DNA from: Clostridia bacterium | Lineage (GTDB): Bacteria; Bacillota; Clostridia; Acetivibrionales; JAFADI01 | Length of the DNA: 64,000 nucleotides | Assembly (NCBI GenBank): GCA_026417615.1 | Contig: JAOACY010000123.1 | Location: forward strand, 1 to 64,000 | Reading direction: 5' to 3' | In this document: positions 1 to 37,789 of the stretch, piece after piece | Layout: each line of letters opens with the position of its first letter | How positions within the stretch are numbered: position 1 is the first letter of the stretch | Program-made: the position numbers and the translations under genes | The notes under the pieces: model-generated | Databases searched by the model: none | The model's input: the letters and a program-made list of their open reading frames with translations, nothing else | What the model was told of the DNA's origin: nothing

Positions 1-35
1 TCCTCGCTCGCATCAATGTGACATCCTGTCACGTT

Positions 36-145
36 ATGCTCAAAATGCCATCCGTGGCATTTTGGCATCGGAATTACTGCAACTTCGGTGAGTGATTTAT
101 GCATCTTGCTTCAAGAAAAGCTGTTTTTGCAGTAGAATCAACTTA
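36..145. repeat. Dispersed intergenic repeat, copy 1 (second copy at ~37196-37305)
   Basis: ATGCTCAAAATGCCATCCGTG..CATTTTG..CGGAATTACTGCAAC..AGTGATTT..ATCTTGCTTCAAGAAAAGCTGTTTTT aligns colinearly, with one 1-nt gap, to 37196-37305; roughly 78% identity counted by eye. Contains hairpin AAAATGCCA-TCCG-TGGCATTTT. Confidence 0.8.
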
Positions 146-36400: not shown

Positions 36401-37141
36401 TTAGTTATTTGAGATTTTCTGTCTTATTTCCTCAAGTATTTTTTTCTCTATCCTGGAAACCTGAACCTGTGATATCCCTAGCATTTTGGCAATTTGCACC
36501 TGTGTTTTTTCCTTGAAGTACCTCAGCACTATAATCTGCTTTTCCCGGGGTTTTAATGTGTCAAGTATCTGTTTCAGTGCAATTTTATCAATTATATCGA
36601 CCTCATTGCTCACACTTTCCCCGTTTATCCTGTCTATAAGCAGGATTGGCGAGCTGTCACCCTCCTTTATTGTGTTGAAAAGAGATTCGGGGGAGCTTGA
36701 GGCCTCTTGTGCCATAACAAGCTCTTCAGGAGATATATTCAGCCTTTGGGCCATCTCGCCTACAGTTGGTTCACGCCCGAGCTCCTTGCTCATAACCTCT
36801 TTTGTGACCCTGGCCTTATTGGAGGTTTCCTTCAGTGATCTGCTTACCTTAATAATGCCGTCATCCCTGATAAACCTCTTTATTTCTCCGATAATCATAG
36901 GTACGGCGTAAGTTGAGAATCTAACTCCGAAGGATGCGTCAAATTTGTTTATGGATTTCATTAGTCCTATACAGCCTATTTGAAAAAGATCGTCGTTTTC
37001 ATACCCTCTGTTTTGAAACCTCTTTACAATGCTCCATACCAGCCCGACATTTCTTTCCACCATTAAAGCCTGGGCTTGCTTGTCACCCTTCTTTGCTTTT
37101 TGTATAAGTTCAAGCACTTCATCCTCTGCATGTTCATTCAT
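36401..37141 (-). CDS. sigF: RNA polymerase sporulation sigma factor SigF (SpoIIAC)
   Basis: 246 aa; ENDDLFQIGCIGLMKSINKFD, RFSTYAVPMIIGEIKRFIRDDG, follows spoIIAA-AB. Confidence 0.93.
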   Translation of the reverse strand: MNEHAEDEVLELIQKAKKGDKQAQALMVERNVGLVWSIVKRFQNRGYENDDLFQIGCIGLMKSINKFDASFGVRFSTYAVPMIIGEIKRFIRDDGIIKVSRSLKETSNKARVTKEVMSKELGREPTVGEMAQRLNISPEELVMAQEASSSPESLFNTIKEGDSSPILLIDRINGESVSNEVDIIDKIALKQILDTLKPREKQIIVLRYFKEKTQVQIAKMLGISQVQVSRIEKKILEEIRQKISNN

Positions 37142-37195
37142 ATAATATCCTGTGCCTTTCCTTAATAAACATTAATGTTTTTGATTGCTTATGTG

Positions 37196-37305
37196 ATGCT
37201 CAAAATGCCTTCCGTGCGTTTTGACGCCGGAATTGCTGCAACGCAGGCAAGTGATTTTTGAATCTTGTTTCAAGAAAAACTGTTTTTAAGCCAAAATCAC
37301 TTTAA
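37196..37305. repeat. Dispersed intergenic repeat, copy 2, between spoIIAB and sigF
   Basis: ATGCTCAAAATGCCTTCCGTGCGTTTTGACGCCGGAATTGCTGCAAC..AGTGATTTTTGAATCTTGTTTCAAGAAAAACTGTTTTT; aligns to 36-145; also internal AAGTGATTTT/AAAATCACTT inverted repeat. Confidence 0.8.
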
Positions 37306-37318
37306 TAATCAAAATAAC

Positions 37319-37789
37319 TTATTTAATCAACGATTTAAATGTCTTGAACATATATACCGTTGTCCCCTCACCCGGTTTAGAAGTTACCTCAACAATATCC
37401 ATAAAGCTTTCCATAACAGTAAATCCCATGCCGGACCTGTCCATGTCAGGCTTTGATGTGTAAAGAGGCTGTCTTGCAAGCTCTATATCTTCTATTCCAA
37501 CTCCATCATCACTTATGATAATTTCCACAGCATCGCAAAAAAGCTTGCAATGCATTCTTATTAACCCCTGCGAATTTTCATATCCATGGATGACCGCATT
37601 TGTGACAGCCTCCGATACAGCTGTCTTGACATCCGCCAGCTCCTCAAGGGTTGGATCTATCTGCGATACAAATGCCGCTGCAACTACCCTGGCGAAGGCC
37701 TCATTGCTTGACTTGCTAAGGAATTCGAGTTTTATTTCATTTATAGGCTGCATATATGTACTCCCCTCACATATTTTTAAGTGCCTCAT
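37319..37789 (-). CDS. spoIIAB: Anti-sigma F factor SpoIIAB
   Basis: GHKL kinase; VKTAVSEAVTNAVIHGYEN, ISDDGVGIEDIELARQPLYTSKPDMDRSGMGFTVMESFMD. Confidence 0.95.
   Translation of the reverse strand: MRHLKICEGSTYMQPINEIKLEFLSKSSNEAFARVVAAAFVSQIDPTLEELADVKTAVSEAVTNAVIHGYENSQGLIRMHCKLFCDAVEIIISDDGVGIEDIELARQPLYTSKPDMDRSGMGFTVMESFMDIVEVTSKPGEGTTVYMFKTFKSLIK

Follow-up and report, generated by a model that had tools for sequence, protein, structure and literature searches.

The two noncoding repeats in the analysed stretch of DNA from a Clostridia bacterium (64,000 nucleotides, hereafter the window) are remnants of a small mobile DNA element, which with near certainty is a non-autonomous DNA transposon (MITE) of 205 bp. 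Judging by its match to Rfam, the interior of the element is very likely related to TwoAYGGAY (RF01731), an orphan RNA family known since 2010 (PMC2864571) and suspected to bind the regulator CsrA. The whole reading that we favour, and consider somewhat more probable than not, is that of a MITE with a TwoAYGGAY-related, RNA-constrained interior predicted to scatter binding modules for CsrA.

The repeats in the window

The source genome is a draft of 2.46 Mb in 127 contigs, about 84% complete, and the window starts at base 1 of its contig (C18). The relevant features, in window coordinates, are as follows.

1–140, minus strand (the RNA-family strand): copy 1, element positions 66–205 of the 205-bp MITE, left side cut by the contig start
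18–32, minus strand: hairpin 1 of copy 1, GTGACA TCC TGTCAC with minus-strand loop GGA, seen in the sequence and covarying over 30 copies (helix 9)
41–64, minus strand: hairpin 2 of copy 1, CAAAATGCCA TCCG TGGCATTTTG, minus-strand loop ACGGAT, CsrA-like ANGGAN
115–140, no strand assigned: right terminal inverted repeat (TIR) of copy 1, GAAAAGCTGTTTTTGCAGTAGAATCA, 22/26 match to the consensus left TIR
about 37193–37299, minus strand: copy 2, element positions about 98–205, an old, diverged, left-truncated remnant between spoIIAB and sigF
37201–37223, minus strand: hairpin 2 of copy 2, which lacks one base and has the loop ACGGAA on its minus strand, from sequence and alignment
36401–37141, minus strand: gene for a sporulation sigma factor, identified as sigF from its place in the operon (Pfam sigma-70 regions 2, 3 and 4)
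37319–37789, minus strand: spoIIAB-like anti-sigma kinase gene (Pfam HATPase_c_2)

The two stretches do align, as the first-pass annotation had noticed by eye: with copy 2 as query, BLASTN on the genome recovers copy 1 (82% identity, E 1.4e-20), and the element consensus finds both in the window. Copy 1 agrees with the consensus at 98.6% of its 140 bp, with a match to the TIR pattern at C18:123-140, and copy 2 is 83% identical over 96 bp (37193–37287, E 1e-22). The repeat unit of about 105 bp proposed at that stage was only the right half of the element. The suspicion that copy 1 continues past the window edge was correct, as element positions 1–65 are missing there at contig base 1, and the GTGACA-TCC-TGTCAC hairpin regarded as an extra of copy 1 turns out to be a regular part of the element, hairpin 1, which copy 2 has lost together with the left arm. 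The closure of copy 2 by AAGTGATTTT/AAAATCACTT is indeed perfect in its pairing, yet partly a coincidence: AAGTGATTTT is interior arm sequence, the partner of which in full copies sits in the left arm lost from copy 2, while AAAATCACTT spans the right end of the element. The change from GCATTTTG to GCGTTTTG, put forward as a compensated one, gives G.U on the plus strand only and reads as an A.C mismatch on the RNA-family strand, and therefore provides no evidence for compensation, which is genuinely present across the 30 full copies.

Copy 2 is situated inside the spoIIAA-spoIIAB-sigF operon (window 37142–37318) with its GGA strand in the mRNA sense, and the sequence ahead of the sigF start, GGCACAGGATATT on the minus strand, contains a GGA too. 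A contact of CsrA with sigF translation at this site would be pure speculation.

A 205-bp element with terminal inverted repeats and target duplications

A consensus made by hand from aligned matches in the source genome was used in the later searches. Intact copies measure 205 bp and are bounded by imperfect 26-bp TIRs (22/26 identical) with the core GATTC...GAATC. Exact target-site duplications of 6–7 bp flank 12 of the 30 full copies tested, compared to 0.9% and 0.6% when the left flank of one copy is paired with the right flank of another (about 1% expected); the core boundary was chosen after inspection of the flanks, and the control uses the identical boundary. Allowing up to two mismatches, the TIR pattern occurs at 174 ends in the genome, about 87 pairs, and the reversed pattern at 1. 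At least 40 copies were scored, and the TIR ends point to roughly 90 elements. The genome-wide BLASTN search suggested by the first-pass annotation does uncover further copies, and the MITE half of its guess, "MITE/REP-like or structured-RNA family", holds through TIRs, target-site duplications and copy number. Many contigs start or end within a copy, as expected because repeats break assembly.

Shorter derivatives of 181, about 107, 87, 82 and 55 bp keep both ends and have arisen by internal deletion, and hairpin-tip deletions are also seen. According to simple ORF calls, nearly all copies in the source genome are intergenic and show no orientation bias with respect to neighbouring genes (20:20 on the left, 21:14 on the right); a gene-sense bias as a sign of mRNA function was thus looked for and not found. 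The element is too short to hold a transposase gene, and a search by shared TIRs found no transposase or autonomous partner with the same ends in the 84% complete draft or in the complete genome G093. Known phages and plasmids gave no match to the consensus. One copy (L018) has inverted instead of direct flanks (AAATGT...ACATTT), and a copy in another genome (L270 in G072) is similarly extended.

Relation to the TwoAYGGAY RNA family

The full-length element is predicted to form a long stem that carries two hairpins at its apex. Full copies match RF01731 on the minus strand with 39.7–42.8 bits, just under the gathering score of 43 bits, so that a permissive threshold was needed for them, and two further copies exceed it with 46.8 and 46.2 bits; scores of 47.8 and 53.3 are reached by relatives from the same order. 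At the gathering cut-off neither window copy is flagged: copy 1, with its 3' end cut off, reaches 34.6 bits on the minus strand (E 5e-4), and copy 2 alone has no Rfam match. The structured-RNA half of the earlier guess is upheld by this relation to a curated family. Copies explained by an Rfam family had also been named as an outcome that would overturn it, which applies in part, but Rfam gives no mobility for that family.

On the TwoAYGGAY strand, the loop of hairpin 2 is ANGGAN in the full copies (A in 28/30, GGA in 30/30, both N highly variable). The loop of hairpin 1 is one base short, ACA[G/C]GA with G in 21 and C in 9 of 30 copies, and contains GGA in at most 20/30. Instead of two AYGGAY loops, only half of this feature is present, and the interior is therefore called TwoAYGGAY-related and not a strict member. 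The CGA in place of GGA in hairpin 1 (ACACGA, 9/30 copies, e.g. L051, L057 and L059) recurs in several other genomes (L233, L238, L259, L262), a pattern that points to an alternative, tolerated kind of loop and not to decay.

Constraint on the fold and competing explanations

Over the 30 full copies of the source genome, 15 pairs have changes at both positions, compared with 7.2 in shuffles (0/500), and 50 cells compare with 16, figures that are both inflated by the relatedness of the copies. Of the 15 compensated pairs, seven belong to the TIR helix, which a process at the DNA level, for example templated correction of the palindrome, would explain equally well. With Watson-Crick-only structures predicted from both strands and mismatches counted on the TwoAYGGAY strand, G.U exceeds A.C by 143:86 over eleven genomes (p = 2e-4), by 66:33 at inner pairs and by 107:75 among singletons of the eleven genomes (p = 0.02), p-values that are indicative, as copies within one genome are related. 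The singletons of the source genome alone show no G.U excess (17:16). These data support a constrained fold, with an RNA-like asymmetry between the strands when the eleven genomes are pooled, and make an RNA-level constraint probable for the TwoAYGGAY family, not for every copy.

The same observations bear on the view that the element is a MITE only, that Rfam has modelled one branch of a palindrome and that the interior serves DNA events (cruciform formation, transposase binding) or nothing, with covariation as the product of templated correction of quasi-palindromes. Compensation within the TIR helix, where an RNA function is unexpected, speaks for this view, as do the missing gene-sense bias and the source-genome singletons. 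However, templated correction should erase the internal-loop mismatches, which are kept in all copies, and neither the pooled G.U excess on one strand, also at the inner pairs, nor a loop with an invariant GGA between free N positions fits; we regard a MITE without RNA constraint as rather unlikely. Recombination, without transposition, of a structured-RNA gene or cis-regulator of the chromosome as the source of the copies would agree with the Rfam type of RF01731, Cis-reg, with the RF01731 match and with the structural covariation, but is contradicted by the exact target duplications, found together with TIRs in two genomes. Random orientation and varied neighbours also speak against it, as does the discovery paper, which lists TwoAYGGAY as probably not cis-regulatory (PMC2864571); it appears very improbable. 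Even less credence is given to a REP-like palindrome or another single-strand element moved by a HUH transposase, which the hairpin-rich, intergenic nature and the hairpin-tip deletions bring to mind, but which the target duplications contradict, TIRs being present too. HUH transposition is not known to create target duplications or to need TIRs.

For the favoured MITE with an RNA-constrained interior, movement would rely on a transposase acting in trans; the almost constant length of the duplications makes one of the DDE type probable. If copies are transcribed, whether by read-through of nearby genes or through their own promoter, the RNA would form the long stem and the two apical hairpins, which could bind CsrA. 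Modules for CsrA binding would in this way be spread genome-wide by the element, and may titrate CsrA, regulate neighbours or serve the element.

The predicted CsrA connection

TwoAYGGAY has been predicted earlier to bind or sequester CsrA (PMC4333381), the sites of which have a GGA core (PMC7652899). Hairpin 2, a candidate ligand, would more probably than not bind CsrA; its loop, with GGA in 30/30 copies and both N variable, fits CsrA recognition. In CsrA-binding RNAs such sites usually come in pairs, and hairpin 1, one base short in its loop, has GGA in at most 20/30. The stems of the element are long and stable, whereas selected CsrA ligands have short stems (PMC7652899).

The source genome encodes csrA (PF02599, E 1.4e-22), next to fliW, which was recognised by eye. 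Ignoring phylogeny, csrA is present in 32 of 37 carriers of RF01731 and in 95 of 355 other genomes (p = 1e-12), and in all 25 genera with RF01731. Flagellin, used as control, co-occurs equally strongly with RF01731 (p = 1e-12), and the discordant genomes, with RF01731 in 1/5 csrA-only and 2/16 flagellin-only genomes, are too few to decide. This control weakens co-occurrence with csrA as proof of CsrA binding, as it is inseparable from motility; the association is compatible with CsrA binding.

TwoAYGGAY elements across Clostridia

RF01731 is found in 37 of 392 sampled Clostridia genomes and 25 of 223 genera, dispersed and usually in multiple copies per carrier genome (up to 7 scored, copy numbers being at least those scored). 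Sixty copies were retrieved and ten multi-copy genomes aligned. In most of these, the Rfam core is centred within a longer palindrome, which is imperfect and has genome-specific ends; divergence leaves the ends undefinable in G004 and in some of the copies from G137 and G251. Target duplications were examined in the source genome and G093. In the latter, a complete genome in a single contig, elements of 107–614 bp share common TIRs and many carry 8–11-bp duplications, e.g. ATGGAATGG, ATCATATAA and GTACATAAAA. The larger G093 elements of 320–614 bp (L286–L292) possess an additional hairpin arm (AGGCTTGACATATATACC...) and look as if palindromic elements were nested in each other, and two relatives in G013 (L066, L067) have extra side hairpins in both palindrome arms.

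The transposon-borne nature of TwoAYGGAY appears new: the Rfam description does not give the family as mobile, and the literature searched, which covered the main text of the discovery paper, contained no link of TwoAYGGAY to MITEs or mobility. It is a tentative possibility, held at less than even confidence, that TwoAYGGAY is generally transposon-borne, with several MITE lineages that differ in ends and duplication lengths around one CsrA-ligand core, and that in motile Clostridia transposition keeps dispersing and renewing CsrA-binding modules, which would act as a sponge for CsrA across the genome or belong to a selfish, CsrA-exploiting element.

Significance and comparison with known systems

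Mobile elements appear to contain, as their interior, what is listed as an orphan RNA family, Cis-reg in Rfam, and these results suggest that an "RNA gene" family has really spread through genomes as transposons. A mobile-element origin, if true, would explain copies in unrelated contexts and makes the predicted CsrA sequestration in Clostridia directly testable. More generally, motif-discovery pipelines can take covarying palindromic MITEs for RNA genes, and covariation alone cannot tell selection on RNA from the correction of palindromes, a question that the G.U versus A.C strand test is one way to address.

The hairpin AAAATGCCATCCGTGGCATTTT is an exact 22-mer that recurs many times in some Gammaproteobacteria genomes, and in the metagenome-assembled genomes CAR2_bin_11 and RHO3_bin_19 (L129–L164) a different palindromic repeat begins with the identical hairpin; some copies are solitary hairpins of about 50 bp (L152, L160, L161). 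These repeats were rejected as the same element, being different palindromes with no RF01731 match that share the GGA hairpin type instead.

Bacterial MITEs such as QMITE1 and QMITE2 of Coxiella, which have been reported to give rise to sRNAs (PMC10969869), resemble the element in being short, non-coding, mostly intergenic and present in high copy number, with TIRs, target duplications and strong secondary structure. No parent transposase is known for the present element, and a conserved RNA-family core is here common to elements with differing ends and duplication lengths across genera. With RF01731 (clan CL00106, which includes RsmY) the element shares the strand, two adjacent apical hairpins and the long imperfect stem, but its hairpin 1 loop is shorter, ACA[G/C]GA and not AYGGAY, and its ends are marked by TIRs and target duplications, features absent from the family description. 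CsrB, RsmY and relatives present GGA in hairpin loops, with many CsrA sites per RNA. The element is like these CsrA-sequestering sRNAs in its GGA-loop hairpins, but combines one canonical and one degenerate putative site per copy with roughly 90 copies dispersed over the genome.
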